From Yinghuangia soli (GTDB lineage Bacteria > Actinomycetota > Actinomycetes > Streptomycetales > Streptomycetaceae): 64,000 nucleotides of DNA. The stretch's first letter is position 1. Each line of letters starts with the position of its first letter. A model generated the notes under the pieces. It worked only from the letters and a program-made list of their open reading frames with translations. It ran no database searches and was not told the DNA's origin. The stretch is from contig NZ_JAKFHA010000003.1 of NCBI RefSeq assembly GCF_021502675.1, positions 342,103 to 406,102 of the forward strand, given 5' to 3'. Both the position numbers and the translations under genes were made by a program. This document shows positions 56,382-64,000 of this stretch, piece by piece.

Positions 56382-57161
56382 TCAGGTGGTCTCCGCCGCG
56401 CACCAGTCCACTGCGGAGAGGCCGAACTCCGCCATCAGGCGCCGCATTCCGGGGAGGGCGGCCGGGTGGGCCCCGGCGAAAGCCAGCACGGACACCAGCG
56501 GCCCGTCCTCCAGTCCGTAGACGGTGACGCCCTCGCCCGCGTCGAAGGCGTACGACCCGGCCACCCGGCCCGGCTGCCCGCCGAACCCGACGCCCCGGTG
56601 GACCTGGCCCTGTACCGGGATCAACTCCGTCAGCCGCTGCATCGGCAGGGCGACGCCGTCCAGAGGAACGGTCGGCGTCGCCCGCACGTGCAACTGGTCG
56701 AAGACGCGCAACTGCCGGCCTTCGTGCGTCACCTGCTGAGCATGGAACCGGTGGATCCGGCGGATCTCGGCCAGCTCCATCGCCACCTCCGCACCGACCA
56801 GGCCGGACACCAACTCGACCTGCCGCCAGTCGTCTTCGTGCAGCATGAAGAGCGGCTCGGGGCCGTCGTGCGGCTCCATCGCCGGGAGCGGGTCGCACAG
56901 TGTGGGCATCGAGTACTTCACGTCGCGCGGGGCCACCTGCTCGACGCGGGCCAGCGTCAGGACCAGGCGCCCCTGGGCCACGTACTCGGCGGCCGTGGGC
57001 GGATCGGCCCGGACCACCTCCCAGTCCACGCCGCCCATCGCCAACTGCGTCGCCGTCTCGAAGGATTCCGGCAGGTGACCCGCGGGCACCGGGCTGCGCG
57101 CGAACTCCGCGCCGGTCGCGGCGTCCACGAACAGGACTTGGATGACTGCTTCGTCGGCCAT
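56382..57161 (-). CDS. hypothetical protein, 259 aa
   Basis: I do not recognise a family. Soluble, no signal peptide. The N-terminal 50 residues (VIQVLFVDAATGAEFARSPV) and the middle (TLARVEQVAPRDVKYSMPTL) look like alternating strands and helices. FDAGEGVTVYGLEDGPLVSVL suggests a beta sandwich. ATG 57161. It lies 71 bases downstream of metX on the same strand, so it may be read through from the metY-metX operon, but nothing ties it to methionine. Confidence 0.55.
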   Translation of the reverse strand: MADEAVIQVLFVDAATGAEFARSPVPAGHLPESFETATQLAMGGVDWEVVRADPPTAAEYVAQGRLVLTLARVEQVAPRDVKYSMPTLCDPLPAMEPHDGPEPLFMLHEDDWRQVELVSGLVGAEVAMELAEIRRIHRFHAQQVTHEGRQLRVFDQLHVRATPTVPLDGVALPMQRLTELIPVQGQVHRGVGFGGQPGRVAGSYAFDAGEGVTVYGLEDGPLVSVLAFAGAHPAALPGMRRLMAEFGLSAVDWCAAETT

Positions 57162-57232
57162 CCGCGTACGGTATCCGGCGTTCACGGGCCGCCGCAGGAG
57201 TCGCCCCCCTCGGCCGCCGCGGCCCCTCGGGG

Positions 57233-58360
57233 TCAGAAGGCTCCCCACGGAGTCGAAGGGCGGGTGTGGACGGCAGCCGGTGTGCGGGTCAGGGCGGCGG
57301 CCACCAGCGGGGCGACCTGGTCGAGTTCGATCAGGAAGCCGTCATGCCCGTAGGGCGAGTCGATCCAGGCCAGGTCGCGGGCGGTCGGGATGGCCTCGGC
57401 CAGGGCGCGCTGCTGGGCGGGCGGGTAGAGGCGGTCGGTGCCGACCGCGGCGACGGTGGTGGGGGCGGTGATCCGCGACAGCGCCGCGGCGATGCCGCCG
57501 CGGCCGCGGCCCACGTCGTGGCTGTTCATGGCCTCGGTGAGGACCACGTAGCTGCCCGCGTCGAAGCGGGCCACCAGCTTCGCGGAGTGGTGGTCCAGGT
57601 ACGACTCGACCGCGTACCGCCCGTGCGGGCCCTCGCCCGGTTGGCGTTCCCGGCCGAAGCGGGCCTGGAGTTCGGCCTCGCTGCGGTAGGTGATGTGCGC
57701 GATGCGCCGGGCCACGCCGAGGCCGCGCCACGGGCCGGACTCCGGCGGCAGGTGGTGGTAGTCGCCGCCGTGCCAGCCCGGGTCGGCGCGGATGGCGTGG
57801 GTCTGGGCCGCGCACCAGGCGATCTGGTCCGCGGTGGCCGCGGCTCCGCAGGCGGCCAGGAAGAGCGCCCCCACGCGGTCAGGGTGGGTGACGGCCCATT
57901 CGAGGGCCCGCATGCCGCCCATCGAGCCGCCGACGACCGCCGCCCACCGGTCGATGCCGAGCGCGTCCGCGGCGGCGGCCTCGGCCGCCACCTGGTCGCG
58001 GATGGTGAGCCGCGGGAAGCGGCTGCCCCAGGCCCGCCCGTCGGGTGCGAGGGACGCCGGGCCGGTGGTGCCGCGGCAGCCCCCGAGCACGTTGGGGGCC
58101 ATGACGAACCACCGGTCGGTGTCCAGCGCCCGCCCGGGCCCGACGAGTCCGTCCCACCAGCCGGGGCTGGGGAACCCCGGGCCGGCGGGTCCGGCGACGT
58201 GGCTGTCGCCGGTGAGCGCGTGCAGGACGAGCACGGCGTTCGACCGGTCCGGGGCGAGCGTCCCCCAGGTCTCGTAGCCGATCCGGACATCGGGCAGCAC
58301 GCCGCCGGACTCGAGGTGCAGGGGACGGTCGAGGGCCAAGGTGCGCAGGCCGGACGGCAT
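57233..58360 (-). CDS. metX: homoserine O-acetyltransferase
   Basis: Acetylates L-homoserine with acetyl-CoA, giving the substrate for MetY. 375 aa alpha/beta hydrolase fold with the family motifs [10 protein letters not shown] (oxyanion region), nucleophile elbow GGSMGGM (Ser146), [12 protein letters not shown] and the catalytic His in [10 protein letters not shown]; Asp in GTDRLYPP completes the triad. ATG 58360, 17 bases after the metY stop, so the two form one operon in the order metY-metX. Confidence 0.92.
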
Positions 58361-58377: not shown

Positions 58378-59820
58378 TCAGGCCGTCGGCACGGCGGCCG
58401 GCGGCGCGGGCGGGGCGGCGGCGTCCGCGCCGGGTTCCGCCGAGGCGCGGAATCCGGCCTCCAGGTCGGCGGTCAGGTCGGCGAGCCCTTCGATGCCGAC
58501 CGCGAGCCGGACCAGTCCGGGCGTCACCCCGGTGGCGAGCCGCTCCTCCGGGGTGAGCTGGGCGTGCGTGGTGCTGGCCGGGTGGATCACCAGGCTGCGC
58601 ACGTCGCCGATGTTGGCGAGGTGGCTGAAGAGCGTGAGCGCGTCCACGAAGCGCCGCCCGGCCGCGACTCCCCCGGCGAGTTCGAACGCCACGATGGCGC
58701 CGGCGCCGCGCGGCAGGTACCGCTGCCCTGCCTCGTACCAGCGGCTGTTCGGGAGTCCCGCGTAGTGCACGTGCTCGACCTCGGGGCGGCCGGACAGCCA
58801 GTCGGCGATCGCCGCGGCGTTGGCCACGTGCCGCTCCACGCGCAGCGAGAGCGTCTCCAGGCCCTGCAGGATGAGGAAGCTGGTGAGCGGCGCGATGGAC
58901 GCCCCCACGTCGCGCAGCAGTTGCACGCGGAGCTTCGCGGCATAGGCGCCCGAGCCCAGGTCCGGCCAGTAGCGCAGCCCGTTGTAGCTCGCGTCCGGGG
59001 TGACGAAGCCGGGGAAGCGCTCGGCGTGCGCGCCGAAGTCGAACGTCCCGGCGTCGACCACGATGCCGCCGATGGCCGTGCCGTGGCCGCCGAGGTACTT
59101 GGTCGCGGAGTGCACGACGACGTCCGCGCCGTGCTCGATGGGGCGCAGCAGGTACGGCGTGGGCACGGTGTTGTCGACCACCAGCGGGACCCCGGCCGCA
59201 TGCGCGACCCCGGCGACCGCCTCGATGTCCAGGACGTTCCCGCGCGGGTTGCCGAGGGTCTCCGCGAACAGCAGTTTCGTCTCGGGGCGGATCGCGGCCT
59301 GCCACGCGGCCGGGTCGTCGGGGTCCTCGACGAACGTCACGTCGATGCCGAGCTTGGGCAGCGTCCAGTGGAAGAGGTTGTACGTACCGCCGTACAGCGA
59401 CGCGCTGGACACGATGTGGTCGCCCGCGCCCGCGAGGTTGAGCACCGCGAGCGTCGTGGCGGCCTGGCCGGATGCGGTGGCCACGGCCGCGACGCCGCCT
59501 TCGAGTGCCGCGACGCGCTGTTCGAGCGCGTCCGTGGTCGGGTTGTGGATGCGGGTGTAGATGTGGCCGGCCTGGGACAGGTCGAACAGCCCTGCGGCGT
59601 GGTCGGTGTCACGGAAGACGAACGAGGTCGTCTGGTAGATCGGGACGGCCCGTGCGCCGGTGGCCGGATCGGGTGCGGTGCCCGCGTGGATCTGGCGGGT
59701 CTCGAAGGACCACGTCGACGGATCGAGCGGCTCGGGCGCCGCCGCAAGGCCGTCGGCGGCATCGGCAGCCGTGTCGAGGGCAGTGCCGGGGGCGGCGTCG
59801 AGGGTGGTGTCGACAGTCAT
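58378..59820 (-). CDS. metY: O-acetylhomoserine sulfhydrylase
   Basis: PLP enzyme that makes homocysteine from O-acetylhomoserine and sulfide. 480 aa: an extra 36-residue Ala/Asp-rich N-terminus, then [20 protein letters not shown] (39-58), YTRIHNPT (88-95), [16 protein letters not shown] and the PLP lysine Lys241 ([11 protein letters not shown]). ATG 59820 has CAGGAG six bases upstream. First gene of metY-metX. It diverges from a second, oxygenase-fused sulfhydrylase at 60268; the two PLP domains share most motifs, so they are paralogues. Confidence 0.93.
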
Positions 59821-60267
59821 GCGCATCTCCTGCGGGGTCGCGGCGGCAGGCCGTGATGGTAGGCAGCAACTCACCAGGTCACCAAGGCTTTTGCGGCCTT
59901 CCGGGCGATCCGGCAACGACTCGTTCGCGCCGCGTTCACAAGTGGACGGACCGGCTGCGGGCGTGCTTTCATCGCCGCCATGGCCCCGCAGCAGATCATG
60001 TCCGCGCTCCTCGACCCGTTCTGGGCCGGGCGCCGCGCCGACCACTTCGACCAGATCTGTCGCTGACGCGCGCCCGGCGGCCCGGCACAGCCCGGAAGAC
60101 CGCCGCTTCGCCCGCCCTCCGCTCCGCCGAGCCCCCCGACGCACCCCGTACGCCCCGTCCCGTCGCGCCCTTCGCCCGTGCGCCGTACGGCAGTTGCCGC
60201 ACCGCGCCGCACGCGGCTGCCGAACCGCGCACCGATCGGCCGTACCGGGCATTTCCGAGGACCACGC
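59821..60267. promoter_or_regulatory. 447-base divergent control region between metY and the oxygenase-sulfhydrylase gene
   Basis: Must hold both promoters. On the plus strand a 28-codon frame (59980-60066) ends in ...GRRADHFDQICR, similar to the short Cys-containing leader peptides (ending ICR or CR) found before sulfur genes in streptomycetes, about 200 bases before the main start. On the minus strand a short frame with Cys codons ends at 59871. No SAM riboswitch consensus is visible. Attenuation by cysteine availability is a hypothesis. Confidence 0.4.
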
Positions 60268-62727
60268 ATGTCAGCGACCACAGTGCCACCTGCCTCCGCC
60301 TCTCCCGACTCCGTCTCCCCCGCATCGACCGCCCCCGGCTCGGACCGGGCCTCCGGCTCCCCCGCGCTCCCGGTGATCGACATTTCCCGGTTCCGCGGCA
60401 CCCCCGGCGAGCGCGCCGCGCTGCTGGCCGAACTCCGGCACGCGGCACGCGAGATCGGCTTCTTCTACGTCGTCGGCCACGGCGTCGACCCCGGACTACG
60501 GGCGCAGGCCCTCGCGGTCGCGCGACGCTTCTTCGCGCTGCCCGAGGAGCAGCGCCTGGAGATCGAGAACGTCCGGTCTCCGCAGTTCCGCGGCTACACT
60601 CGCACCGGCACCGAGTACACCGCCGGCGGCCCCGACTGGCGCGAGCAACTGGACATCGGCCCGGAGCGGCAGGCGCTGCGCATCGAGCCCGGCGACCCGG
60701 CGTACCTGCGCCTCGTCGGCCCGAACCAATGGCCCTCCGCACTACCGGAGTTGAAGGACGTCGTGCTGCGCTGGCAGGCCGAGGCGCTGCGGGTGAGCCG
60801 TGAGGTGCTCCGCGCGCTGGCCGCCGCCCTCGGCCAGGACTCCGGCTACTTCGACGAGTGGTTCGACGACGAGGCGGCGGTCCACGTCAAGGTCGTGCAC
60901 TATCCGGGCCGTCCCGCCGCCGACGTCGAGCAGGGCGTGGGCGCGCACAAGGACTACGGGTATCTGGCGCTGCTCCAGCAGGACGAGGTCGGCGGGCTCC
61001 AGGTCCAGGCACGCGACGGTTCGTGGATCGACGCGGCACCGCTGCCCGACTCGTTCGTCTTCAACATCGGCGAGATGCTGGAGATCGCCACCGGCGGCTA
61101 TCTGCGGGCCACGCAGCACCGGGTGGTGGCCCCGCCGCCGGGCGTGGACCGCTATTCCCTGCCGTTCTTCCTGGGCCCGCGGCTGGACGCGGTGGTCGAG
61201 CCGCTGACCCTGCCCGCGGAGCTGGCCGCGGTCGCGGACGGCGTCACCGAGGATCCCGGCAATCCGCTCGAACCCGCGTTCGGCGAGAACGCCCTGCTGG
61301 GCTGGCTGCGTTCGCACCCGCGCGTGGTCGACCGCTGGTGGCGCGACCTCGCGGAGGGCGGGGCAGTGCGCAGCGGCCCGGCGTTCGACACGCTGCAGGT
61401 CCACGCGGGCGCCCGTCCCGATCCGGTGACGGGTGCGCGGGCCGTGCCGGTGTACCTGACGACGAGCTACGTGTTCCGCGACACCGGGCACGCCGCCGAC
61501 GCGTTCGCGCTCACCGACCTCGACACGCACGCGTACACCCGCCTGTCCAACCCGACGACCGCGGCGGCCGAGGAGCGGATCGCCGCGCTGGAAGGCGGCA
61601 CCGCGGCGGTCGCGGTGGGCAGCGGCCAGGCGGCCACCACGCTTGCGCTGCTCAATCTGGTGCGGGCCGGCGGCCACATCGCCGCGGCGGCGTCGCTGTA
61701 CGGCGGCACCCGCACGTTGCTCGAACACACCTTCGCCGACCTGGGCATCGACGTGACGTTCGTCGACGACCCCGACGACATCGGCGCGTGGCGGCGCGCG
61801 GTCCGCCCCGAGACGCGGGCGCTGTTCGCGGAGAGCATCGGCAACCCGCGCGGGAATGTGCTCGACATCGCTGCGGTCGCCGGCGTCGCGCATGCGGCCG
61901 GGGTGCCGCTGGTGGTCGACAACACGGTCCTCACGCCGTACCTCCTGCGCCCGCTGGAGCACGGTGCGGACATCGTGGTGCACTCGACCACGAAGTTCCT
62001 GGGCGGGCACGGCACGGCGATCGGGGGCGTGGTGGTCGACGGCGGCCGCTTCGACTTCGGGGCGCGCCCGGAGCGCTGGCCCGGGCTGGTGGCGCCGGAT
62101 CCGACGTACCACGGGCTGTCGTTCTGGGACCGGTTCGGCGCCGACCGGGTGGCGTACGCGCTGCGCCTGCGCGTACGCCTGCTGCGCGACCTCGGCCCAG
62201 CCGTCTCGCCGCTCAACAGCTTCCTTCTCCTCCAGGGCCTGGAGACGCTGTCCCTGCGCGTCGCCCGGCACACCGCGAACGCCGAGCAGGTGGCGGCCTG
62301 GCTCGCCGGGCAGCCCGGCGTGCTGCGCGTCGACCATCCGAGCCTGCCGTCCAGCCCGTGGCACGAGGCCGCCCGGCGGTACCTGCCGCGCGGTGCGGGT
62401 GCGGTGCTCGCGGTCGACCTCGCGGGCGGGCTCGACGCGGGCCGCCGGTTCGTCGAAGGGCTGCGGCTGTTCAGCCACTTGGCGAACATCGGGGACGCGC
62501 GCAGCCTGGCGATCCATCCGGCGTCCACCACGCATGCGCAGCTCGACGCGGCGCAGCAGGCGGCCGCGGGCGTGTCGCCCGGTCTGGTCCGGCTGTCGGT
62601 GGGCCTGGAGGGCGTCGGCGACCTGATCGCGGACCTGCGGCGCGGCCTCGCCGCGACTCTCGACTCCGCACCCGTCGCGGGCGATGCTGATGCGGCTCTG
62701 GACCCGACCGCGGAGGCGCGCTCATGA
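60268..62727 (+). CDS. fusion of IPNS-like 2-oxoglutarate/Fe(II) oxygenase and O-acetylhomoserine sulfhydrylase
   Basis: One uninterrupted 819-residue chain. Residues 33-345 are an isopenicillin-N-synthase-family oxygenase: DIOX_N part (LPVIDISRFRG...GFFYVVGHGV, 34-73), iron ligands His227, Asp229 (AHKDYG) and His284 (TQHRV), and the 2-oxoglutarate anchor Arg295-x-Ser297 (DRYSLPFF). After a short linker, residues 373-800 are a full MetY-type PLP enzyme: FDTLQVHAG, YTRLSNPT, SGQAAT, VDNTVLTPYL, Lys576 (HSTTKFLGGHG). All visible catalytic residues of both halves are present. ATG 60268 has GAGGA seven bases upstream. The stop overlaps the hydrolase start (ATGA). The oxygenase probably oxidises an organosulfur or thiol compound whose sulfur is then fixed by the second domain. 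Confidence 0.9.
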   Translation: MSATTVPPASASPDSVSPASTAPGSDRASGSPALPVIDISRFRGTPGERAALLAELRHAAREIGFFYVVGHGVDPGLRAQALAVARRFFALPEEQRLEIENVRSPQFRGYTRTGTEYTAGGPDWREQLDIGPERQALRIEPGDPAYLRLVGPNQWPSALPELKDVVLRWQAEALRVSREVLRALAAALGQDSGYFDEWFDDEAAVHVKVVHYPGRPAADVEQGVGAHKDYGYLALLQQDEVGGLQVQARDGSWIDAAPLPDSFVFNIGEMLEIATGGYLRATQHRVVAPPPGVDRYSLPFFLGPRLDAVVEPLTLPAELAAVADGVTEDPGNPLEPAFGENALLGWLRSHPRVVDRWWRDLAEGGAVRSGPAFDTLQVHAGARPDPVTGARAVPVYLTTSYVFRDTGHAADAFALTDLDTHAYTRLSNPTTAAAEERIAALEGGTAAVAVGSGQAATTLALLNLVRAGGHIAAAASLYGGTRTLLEHTFADLGIDVTFVDDPDDIGAWRRAVRPETRALFAESIGNPRGNVLDIAAVAGVAHAAGVPLVVDNTVLTPYLLRPLEHGADIVVHSTTKFLGGHGTAIGGVVVDGGRFDFGARPERWPGLVAPDPTYHGLSFWDRFGADRVAYALRLRVRLLRDLGPAVSPLNSFLLLQGLETLSLRVARHTANAEQVAAWLAGQPGVLRVDHPSLPSSPWHEAARRYLPRGAGAVLAVDLAGGLDAGRRFVEGLRLFSHLANIGDARSLAIHPASTTHAQLDAAQQAAAGVSPGLVRLSVGLEGVGDLIADLRRGLAATLDSAPVAGDADAALDPTAEARS

Positions 62728-63647
62728 CGATCCATCACCTCACTGCCCGGGAGATCAAGCTGCGCGGCGCCCGCGGAGAGTTCCACCTGCGGGTCTGGCC
62801 GGCGGCCGCGGCCACCGGCGCCGCGGAGGCGGCGAGCGGCGCCGATGCGTCCGGCAGCCCGCAGACCGCACCTGCGGGGGTCGTGCTCTTCCTCCACGGA
62901 CTGGGCGAACACGGGGGCCTGTACGGCCCGTTGGCCGAGCGGCTGGCCGCGGACGGGGTCGAGCTGTGGGCGCCCGACCACATCGGGCACGGTCTGAGCG
63001 ACGGTACGCGCGTCCTGGTGGAGAGCCTGGACGCGCTGGCCGACGACGCCGAGCTGATCCTCGCCCGCATCGCGGAGGAGCGTCCCGGCGTGCCGCTGGT
63101 GCTCGCGGGCCATTCGCTCGGTGCCGCGATCAGCCTGCTGCTGGCCGGCGAACGCCCGTCCGCCGCACATGCGAAGGCCTTGGTGCTGGCCGGCGCGAGC
63201 ATCGGGCTCTCCGCCGACGGAAACCCGGAGGCGGACCGGGCGGGCGGCCTGCGCAAGCTCCTCGAAGAGCTCGGGATCGACCCGTTGGACCTGCGCAAGG
63301 ACCCGTCCGAGCTGTGCGGCAACTCCGCGTACGCGGACCAGGTCCGCAACGATCCCCTGGTCTGGGACGGCGGTCTGCGCCTGGAGACCCTGGACGCCCT
63401 GGAGGAGGGCGGCCGCCGCATCGCCGGGATCGTCGGCGCCGGGCGCCCGACCGTCCCGATCCTGTTCCTGCACGGCGGCGCCGACGACCTGGCGCCGGCC
63501 GCCGCGGTCGAGGCCACCGCCGCGCGCCTGCCGAACGCACGGGCCCGGGTCTTCCCCGAGGACCGGCACAACGTGCTCGCCGAGACCGACCAGGCGGACG
63601 TGTACGACGAGTTCGCCGCGTTCGTGCGGGCCGCCGTCACCGCGTAG
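62724..63647 (+). CDS. alpha/beta hydrolase (monoacylglycerol lipase/lysophospholipase-like)
   Basis: 307 aa: oxyanion HGLGEHGG (58-65 region), DHIGHGLSDG, nucleophile elbow AGHSLGAAI (Ser near 132), acid in HGGADDLAP and His in EDRHNVLAE, the Hydrolase_4 pattern. No signal peptide. Its ATG overlaps the stop of the oxygenase-sulfhydrylase fusion (ATGA), so it is made with that enzyme and probably acts on the same pathway, perhaps hydrolysing an ester or thioester of the imported substrate. Confidence 0.87.
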   Translation: MTIHHLTAREIKLRGARGEFHLRVWPAAAATGAAEAASGADASGSPQTAPAGVVLFLHGLGEHGGLYGPLAERLAADGVELWAPDHIGHGLSDGTRVLVESLDALADDAELILARIAEERPGVPLVLAGHSLGAAISLLLAGERPSAAHAKALVLAGASIGLSADGNPEADRAGGLRKLLEELGIDPLDLRKDPSELCGNSAYADQVRNDPLVWDGGLRLETLDALEEGGRRIAGIVGAGRPTVPILFLHGGADDLAPAAAVEATAARLPNARARVFPEDRHNVLAETDQADVYDEFAAFVRAAVTA

Positions 63648-63780: not shown

Positions 63781-64000
63781 ATGCGCAGATCCCTTTTCCG
63801 CCTCGCGACCGCCCTCGTGCTGACCGGTGCCGCCGGCTTCGGCGCGGTCGCGTGCGGTACGGGCGAGTCGCCGTCGGGCAACGACGGGAACACCTCGACG
63901 GGCGCCGCCGGCCCGTCCGGAAGCCCGTCCACCGCACCGGACTCCGCACTCGACCCGAACGCCACGGTCAACGTGCGCCTGGTGCTCGAACCGACCAGCC
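63781..64000 (+). CDS. ABC transporter substrate-binding lipoprotein, 5' part only
   Basis: The first 73 residues: signal peptide with lipobox FGAVAC (Cys near 25), then a Ser/Gly/Asn linker and the start of the mature domain, NATVNVRLVLEPTS. The latter resembles the opening strand of family-5 (peptide/nickel-type) solute-binding proteins. ATG 63781 has AAGGAG. The gene runs off the window. It is probably the first gene of an importer serving the oxygenase-sulfhydrylase pathway. Confidence 0.75.
   Translation, partial: MRRSLFRLATALVLTGAAGFGAVACGTGESPSGNDGNTSTGAAGPSGSPSTAPDSALDPNATVNVRLVLEPTS

Follow-up and report, generated by a model that had tools for sequence, protein, structure and literature searches.

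Two gases, methanethiol and dimethyl sulfide, have a key part in the sulfur cycle. Among the closest described systems, methylthio-alkane reductase is encoded by the marBHDK genes, named from Rhodospirillum rubrum (PMC12552129), and flavin monooxygenases for dimethyl sulfide are described in an article whose text does not contain the word "2-oxoglutarate" (PMC13352529). According to another report, Rhodopseudomonas palustris gave off methanethiol when supplied aerobically with 2-(methylthio)ethanol, with none detected anaerobically, the enzyme or enzymes being reported as unknown in 2018; methanethiol is directly usable by O-acetyl-l-homoserine sulfhydrylase, a route presumed for R. palustris (PMC5893883). 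Escherichia coli with the same shunt as R. palustris accumulates 2-methylthioethanol (PMC10986504). The present analysis concerns a gene at positions 60268-62727 of a 64,000-nucleotide stretch of a contig of the soil actinobacterium Yinghuangia soli (NZ_JAKFHA010000003.1), hereafter the window, which encodes in a single chain an oxygenase of the 2-oxoglutarate (2OG)/Fe(II) type, a linker and an O-acetylhomoserine sulfhydrylase (OAHS). Its oxygenase half probably, though far from securely, cleaves a carbon-sulfur (C-S) bond and feeds a thiol to the OAHS half.

The fused protein resembles known systems in different respects. With MarBHDK and its OAHS (Rhodospirillum, Rhodopseudomonas) it shares the proposed result, cleavage of a methylthio C-S bond with methanethiol passing to OAHS, and in Rhodopseudomonas-type genomes the oxygenase also shares the gene neighbourhood of MarBHDK; but the latter is a nitrogenase-like reductase, whereas the oxygenase would be an O2-dependent mononuclear iron enzyme, and the two are not homologous. 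Pfam found no nitrogenase-like D/K subunits in the fused protein, so the analogy is functional only. The DmoA/SfnG/SsuD flavin monooxygenases are often gene neighbours of the oxygenase and perform the oxidative C-S cleavage for sulfur acquisition that is proposed for it, but belong to an unrelated protein family with a different cofactor. Bacterial DIOX_N/2OG-FeII oxygenases of the isopenicillin-N-synthase (IPNS) superfamily (solved entries 9ovh and 6jyv) are alike in sequence, iron triad and R-x-S motif; what sets the oxygenase studied here apart is its association with OAHS, by fusion or as a neighbouring gene. The C-terminal half is a full member of the MetY family (TIGR01326; solved entries 4kam, 8sf5 and 7kb0) and keeps the pyridoxal phosphate (PLP) lysine, whereas its junction to an oxygenase, its place in a separate clade within actinobacterial MetY, a score under the PRK07812 cut-off and a valine in place of F716 set it apart. 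A literature search of titles and abstracts, with most subscription journals outside its coverage, returned no account of the fusion or of an oxygenase-OAHS gene pair; both domains are known, and what appears new within oxidative organosulfur assimilation is their union in one chain and the recurrence of the gene pair.

Architecture and conservation of the fused protein

The fused gene (+ strand) starts with ATG and reads as one open frame of 819 aa, in agreement with the continuous frame claimed in an earlier note on this DNA; an alternative in-frame GTG upstream, at 60178, would give an 849-aa product. The oxygenase half (residues 34-350; 60367-61317, +) carries the iron triad H227/D229/H284 and the R295-x-S297 motif, and a linker (residues 351-371; 61318-61380, +), of low AlphaFold confidence from about residue 361, joins it to the OAHS half (residues 372-797; 61381-62658, +), which carries the PLP lysine K576. 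The residues that the note had named as catalytic (H227, D229, H284, R295 and K576) are thus all present at those numbers. Its description of the junction as a short linker was correct, but its denial of an internal start may not hold in this species, as an in-frame GTG (V367; 61366-61368, +) with GGAGGG upstream is a possible start of the OAHS half. Among the possible starts at the junctions of the other four fused genes, no site of this kind was seen.

Pfam domains were assigned to residues 34-157 (DIOX_N), 209-304 (2OG-FeII_Oxy) and 374-794 (Cys_Met_Meta_PP), all far above cut-off, with matches to PF03171 and PF14226 of 81.3 and 118.1 bits. H227, D229, H284 and S297 were conserved in 70/70 aligned oxygenase rows and R295 in 69/70, and K576 corresponded to lysine in 74/74 OAHS rows. 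The conserved R295-x-S297 would fit use of 2OG by the oxygenase half, but the R-x-S motif is also present in IPNS, an enzyme that does not use 2OG. All 77 near-invariant oxygenase positions were retained across the five fused proteins (L052, L048 and L070_10249 being excluded from the sequences compared). Between the window and Yinghuangia seranimata, the ratio of nonsynonymous to synonymous substitution rates (dN/dS) was about 0.10 and 0.12 for the two halves and 0.35 for the linker; both halves are under purifying selection.

The AlphaFold model had a mean predicted local distance difference test score (pLDDT) of 86.3 and a predicted template modelling score (pTM) of 0.58. Confidence was low at both termini and around the junction (residues ~361-430, from the linker into the first part of the OAHS half), and fell below 50 at residues 365-383 and 386-390. 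Because pTM is only 0.58, the model does not fix the relative placement of the two halves.

The OAHS half matched TIGR01326 over its full length (residues 373-794; 585.8 bits, cut-off 495.1), and remained under the cut-off of 703 for the PRK07812 equivalog (NF005872; 670.7), which the neighbouring metY passes (786.7). From its family it is predicted to use O-acetylhomoserine and a sulfur nucleophile, the adjoining metX gene being circumstantial. A structure search with the whole model aligned this half to MetY structures with Z of about 50-56 (4kam, Z 52.5, rmsd 1.4); since it returned the PLP half only, assignment of the oxygenase fold rests on sequence. A sequence search of solved structures matched the oxygenase half to 9ovh (3.9e-70) and 6jyv (3.7e-56), the latter being Pseudomonas aeruginosa PA4191, with similarity spanning residues 1-287 of the 326-residue query. 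Among the best 60 of 80 rows, the best IPNS entry reached 2.7e-14, and of the entries labelled ethylene- or succinate-forming enzyme, 9ovh covered most of the domain and the others (6.9e-16 to 6.1e-15) about half. The labels of 9ovh and 6jyv are depositors' names and were not used as tested functions.

Among the structural neighbours of the C-terminal half are Fub7 and an entry named "promiscuous amino acid gamma synthase". Fungal Fub7 is a precedent for the biosynthetic use of an OAHS-like enzyme, and these neighbours, together with an importer close to nickel/metallophore-type families, would fit a biosynthetic pathway to a natural product or metallophore: O-acetylhomoserine and a nucleophile (amine, carbon or thiol) would be joined by the OAHS half into an unusual gamma-substituted amino acid, for later modification by the oxygenase. 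We consider this unlikely, as no assembly-line or export genes are among the neighbours identified, which encode importers and organosulfur monooxygenases.

Recurrent pairing of oxygenase and OAHS genes

The earlier note regarded neither domain as a known partner of the other, a view that fails at the gene level, where the two are recurrent neighbours. Outside the fused group most relatives carry them as separate genes, and the pairing recurs across Actinobacteria and Proteobacteria, in either order or divergently. In 21 distinct loci the two genes share a strand and are separated by under 700 bases (the oxygenase leads in 14, OAHS in 7), and others were divergent (L052, L070) or 3-5 kb apart, in a set drawn with patterns from both halves, whose frequencies are therefore not unbiased. 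The OAHS tree united the 11 rows of actinobacterial partners, the fused ones among them, in a clade (support 100) nested within actinobacterial MetY, the proteobacterial partners grouped apart from that clade, and the Actinacidiphila partner (L017) fell with canonical MetY. Such partners from at least three OAHS lineages make the link between oxygenase and OAHS look functional. In the oxygenase tree, the state (paired meaning fused, adjacent or within 6 kb) switched at least six times. Both are quick trees whose support values are from the Shimodaira-Hasegawa-like approximate likelihood ratio test (SH-aLRT) only; four duplicate loci (L142, L131, L144, L129) were dropped from both trees and from the conservation count, and 14 canonical Streptomyces metY loci were thinned out of the OAHS tree.

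In four Streptomyces pairs (L016, L125, L126, L127), as well as in L034 and L047, the stop codon of the leading gene overlaps, in a different frame, the start codon of the following one, so that a small frame change would be enough for fusion. The same overlaps would be expected if the enzymes were unrelated steps of a sulfur-starvation response and the fusion a lost overlapping stop between translationally coupled genes, serving co-expression only, and the single fusion event and the fast-evolving junction of low predicted confidence would agree. That account is quite unlikely in our estimate, given the repeated pairing of the oxygenase with OAHS of different lineages and the strong purifying selection on both halves of the fusion.

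Some loci were unusual. On a contig labelled Candidatus Melainabacteria (L035) the OAHS grouped with Actinosynnema (support 100), and the record is probably a contaminated metagenome-assembled genome. The oxygenase gene of Shinella kummerowiae (L066:7412-8619) is split over two frames beside an intact OAHS gene, through pseudogene formation or sequencing error, and in four Mesorhizobium loci (L062, L063, L065, L089) two oxygenase gene copies flank one OAHS gene.

Organosulfur genes around the pairs

Any SsuA, SfnB, LLM or Mar match (BLAST, E 1e-12, 120 residues) in the stretch available per locus was counted as an organosulfur gene. An SsuA-like, SfnB, flavin (LLM) monooxygenase or mar-like gene accompanied 19 of the 23 non-actinobacterial paired loci, in a count whose queries came from paired loci, favouring near relatives, and whose loci were of unequal length. 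The controls gave 1/8 for other OAHS loci in five of these genomes, 1/27 for actinobacterial metY loci (L035 and L041 excluded), 1/20 for proteobacterial oxygenase-only loci and 1/13 for other Streptomycetaceae oxygenase loci.

The proteobacterial pairs are accompanied by SsuA-family binding proteins, SfnB (603.6 bits vs 430.9) and NtaA/DmoA-family and SsuD-type flavin monooxygenases. Annotated records agree in showing such genes in Shinella (ssuD, SfnB, LLM, flavin reductase), Roseomonas (sulfonate binding protein, ssuD) and Rhizobium NXC24 (SfnB). The pair of Streptomyces G278 is followed by an Opp/Nik-type binding protein, and two NtaA/DmoA-family monooxygenase genes lie beyond the importer genes, on the same strand, in G278 and G327. 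In Streptomyces MBT65 (L016), the divergent SBP_bac_5 importer gene is preceded by a SAM-IV riboswitch (93.1 bits, cut-off 38), which ties the importer to methionine or S-adenosylmethionine supply in this one genome; the riboswitch scans also returned one ZMP-ZTP and two ar15 matches without clear bearing.

The nature of the sulfur product has to be weighed here. The SsuA-like importers and SsuD-type monooxygenases near several pairs suggest sulfonates, and sulfide use defines the OAHS family, which would accord with an oxygenase that frees sulfide or sulfite (e.g. from a thiol, sulfonate or sulfate ester) and an OAHS half that converts sulfide into homocysteine. This is nevertheless improbable: sulfite would pass via the ordinary reductase and any MetY, leaving a dedicated second OAHS unexplained, and the mar-like genes and DmoA-family monooxygenases nearby indicate methylthio compounds. 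OAHS cannot use sulfite without prior reduction, which makes a thiol, most likely methanethiol, more probable than sulfite. Of the sulfide, sulfite or thiol listed in the earlier note, the thiol, leading from methanethiol to methionine, is thus retained and sulfite recedes.

Separately, rhizobial oxygenase homologs without OAHS adjoin MetQ-type methionine transporter genes of the ATP-binding cassette (ABC) class in 7 of 20 cases (L068, L076, L078, L080, L083, L085, L088).

Oxygenase genes at mar-like loci of Rhodopseudomonas

In R. palustris JSC-3b, two genes resembling nitrogenase component 1 come after the OAHS gene; the oxygenase gene, which is divergent, has a radical-SAM gene and then a NifH-like gene behind it. 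The cluster is classed as mar-like by family and arrangement, in agreement with the content of marBHDK; curated nitrogenase models scored far under their cut-offs on the mar-like genes, and the R. palustris homolog of the oxygenase matched none of the NCBIfam models. Among 296 sampled genomes of the Rhodopseudomonas-type family (E 1e-120), nine had a marD match, nine an oxygenase match and eight both, and in all eight the oxygenase gene lay 1.8-5.6 kb from marD (hypergeometric 6e-14, for genomes that are probably of one genus and hence not independent). The remaining oxygenase, in G895, has no marD match in its genome and lies directly beside an orthologous OAHS gene (68%), with SsuA-, SfnB- and DmoA-type genes around it. 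Genes similar to soxY and soxZ were also seen near the mar-like cluster of JSC-3b (L174:7648-8456).

Its gene location makes the oxygenase family a candidate for the enzyme of the dihydroxyacetone phosphate (DHAP)-methanethiol shunt that cleaves 2-(methylthio)ethanol aerobically. The genomes point to a single gene family, expected to depend on O2, for which both the locus and the associated trapping enzyme fit this role. More tentatively, the family may be a "methylthio-alkane oxygenase", the O2-dependent counterpart of methylthio-alkane reductase, responsible for the aerobic conversion of 2-(methylthio)ethanol to methanethiol in Rhodopseudomonas and, in Embleya and Yinghuangia, forming a single-chain thioether-to-methionine enzyme.

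Distribution and origin of the fusion

Among 394 sampled genomes of the window organism's family, 187 had an oxygenase match at E 1e-90 and five encoded the oxygenase-OAHS fusion, all in Embleya or Yinghuangia and with frames of 816-895 aa (the window, Y. seranimata, Embleya hyalina, E. scabrispora and G005). One of the window organism's two sampled congeners carries it, and the other three carriers belong to a single other genus. The search for the fused architecture that the earlier note had proposed was therefore productive, and relatives do not always encode two separate proteins. The fused rows form a single clade in both the oxygenase and the OAHS trees (support 99), so the fusion arose once. 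As most relatives have separate genes, sequencing or assembly might be suspected of having united two of them; this was rejected and retains practically no probability, since the same open frame occurs in five assemblies of two genera, with linkers that vary in length and sequence and are all in frame.

Five further genomes of this sample carry close separate oxygenase orthologs (73-79% identity), directly followed by OAHS in four. Several distant homologs (50-55% identity) also sit in long open frames, among the matches listed for the family sample. In a Streptomycetaceae oxygenase group (L132-L141) with about 50-56% identity to the oxygenase half, the loci examined contain no OAHS. Of 72,556 plasmid records, 267 matched and 38 covered 80% or more of the query at a single site, the best 30 of the 38 being listed; stops lie between the two genes in the three examined (L201, L202, L203) of the five single-piece plasmid matches listed, and plasmid locus L205 has the gene order reversed, in two frames. 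Among the matches listed for 396 sampled genomes of the phylum, a full-length match was found in the window genome only.

Proposed function

The organosulfur and mar-like genes around the pairs make C-S cleavage followed by trapping on O-acetylhomoserine the best reading. With Fe(II), O2 and 2OG, the oxygenase half would hydroxylate the carbon adjoining the sulfur of R-CH2-S-CH3, and the resulting unstable hemithioacetal would decompose, leaving an aldehyde and setting free methanethiol or a different small thiol. The OAHS half would then join the thiol to O-acetylhomoserine from the neighbouring MetX; with methanethiol, methionine would result in one step. The downstream Opp/Nik-type ABC transporter probably imports the substrate in the window organism, and the hydrolase overlapping the fusion stop may trim it first. 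The fusion itself would be a late, local step joining two genes long kept together, which would have the two halves made in a 1:1 ratio and may reduce the escape of a volatile thiol. The cleavage and trapping put forward in the earlier note thus gain from the gene context; channelling between the halves is possible, but separate genes are the rule and the junction is of low confidence, so that this part of the note was not borne out. If the proposal is true, the known ways of cleaving C-S bonds for sulfur nutrition would be joined by a non-flavin oxygenase route, of which the fusion is the clearest genomic sign.

Several observations weigh against this proposal, starting with the origin of the queries and the unequal locus lengths in the context count given above. 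Several LLM monooxygenase matches were only about 30% identical. Organosulfur genes were found in just 3 of 11 actinobacterial paired loci (fused locus L130 excluded), all of them of the DmoA family, with 34-40% identity, and all in Streptomyces; 9 of these 11 loci had an Opp/Nik-type binding protein with no ligand assigned, and SsuA, SfnB, LLM and Mar matches were absent from all four of the fused loci in the comparison (L092, L131, L142, L144). Riboswitch scans found nothing at the window locus and only the one SAM-IV in the other loci scanned (8, 10, 7 and 8). As to pairing, the fifth close separate ortholog (L128) is divergent to a canonical metY, L040 has a close oxygenase ortholog without an adjacent partner OAHS, and no OAHS match was found near the distant homologs in 15 long-frame cases, 20 loci (L103-L122) and ten wider regions. 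G877, one of the nine marD genomes, lacks a close oxygenase gene. Within the OAHS half, among 115 positions near-invariant elsewhere, F716 is replaced by valine in all five fused proteins, position 472 deviates in the window protein and position 548 in three others; two further deviating positions are alignment ends.

Neighbouring genes in the window

A separate canonical metY, recognized in the earlier note (58378-59820, -; 5' end inferred from the ORF), lies divergent from the fusion and is 67% identical to its C-terminal half, and metX, encoding homoserine O-acetyltransferase (57233-58330, -; NF047917, 538.1 bits, cut-off 475), is also there. The predicted metX product, O-acetylhomoserine, would supply both sulfhydrylases. 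Downstream of metX, an ORF at 56385-57248 matched no NCBIfam model.

On the other side, the ATG of an alpha/beta hydrolase gene (62724-63647, +) overlaps the fusion stop by four bases (ATGA), so that the two are likely co-translated; the L014 homologue of this hydrolase has a Hydrolase_4 domain. The start of a substrate-binding lipoprotein of an Opp/Nik/Gsi-type ABC importer follows (63781-64000, +; L189:884-2473), and the permease and ATPase genes continue past the window end. The binding protein scored under every curated cut-off, and no ligand was assigned.

The window organism also possesses the methionine-salvage genes mtnP, two of mtnA type, mtnB (TIGR03328, 169.2 vs 137.05) and one of ARD type (PF03079), whose frame as tested matched no NCBIfam model. 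These suggest the usual methylthioadenosine salvage route, so that 2-(methylthio)ethanol is no obvious substrate in this organism and its substrate may differ. The natural substrate in the window organism is more likely an imported compound.

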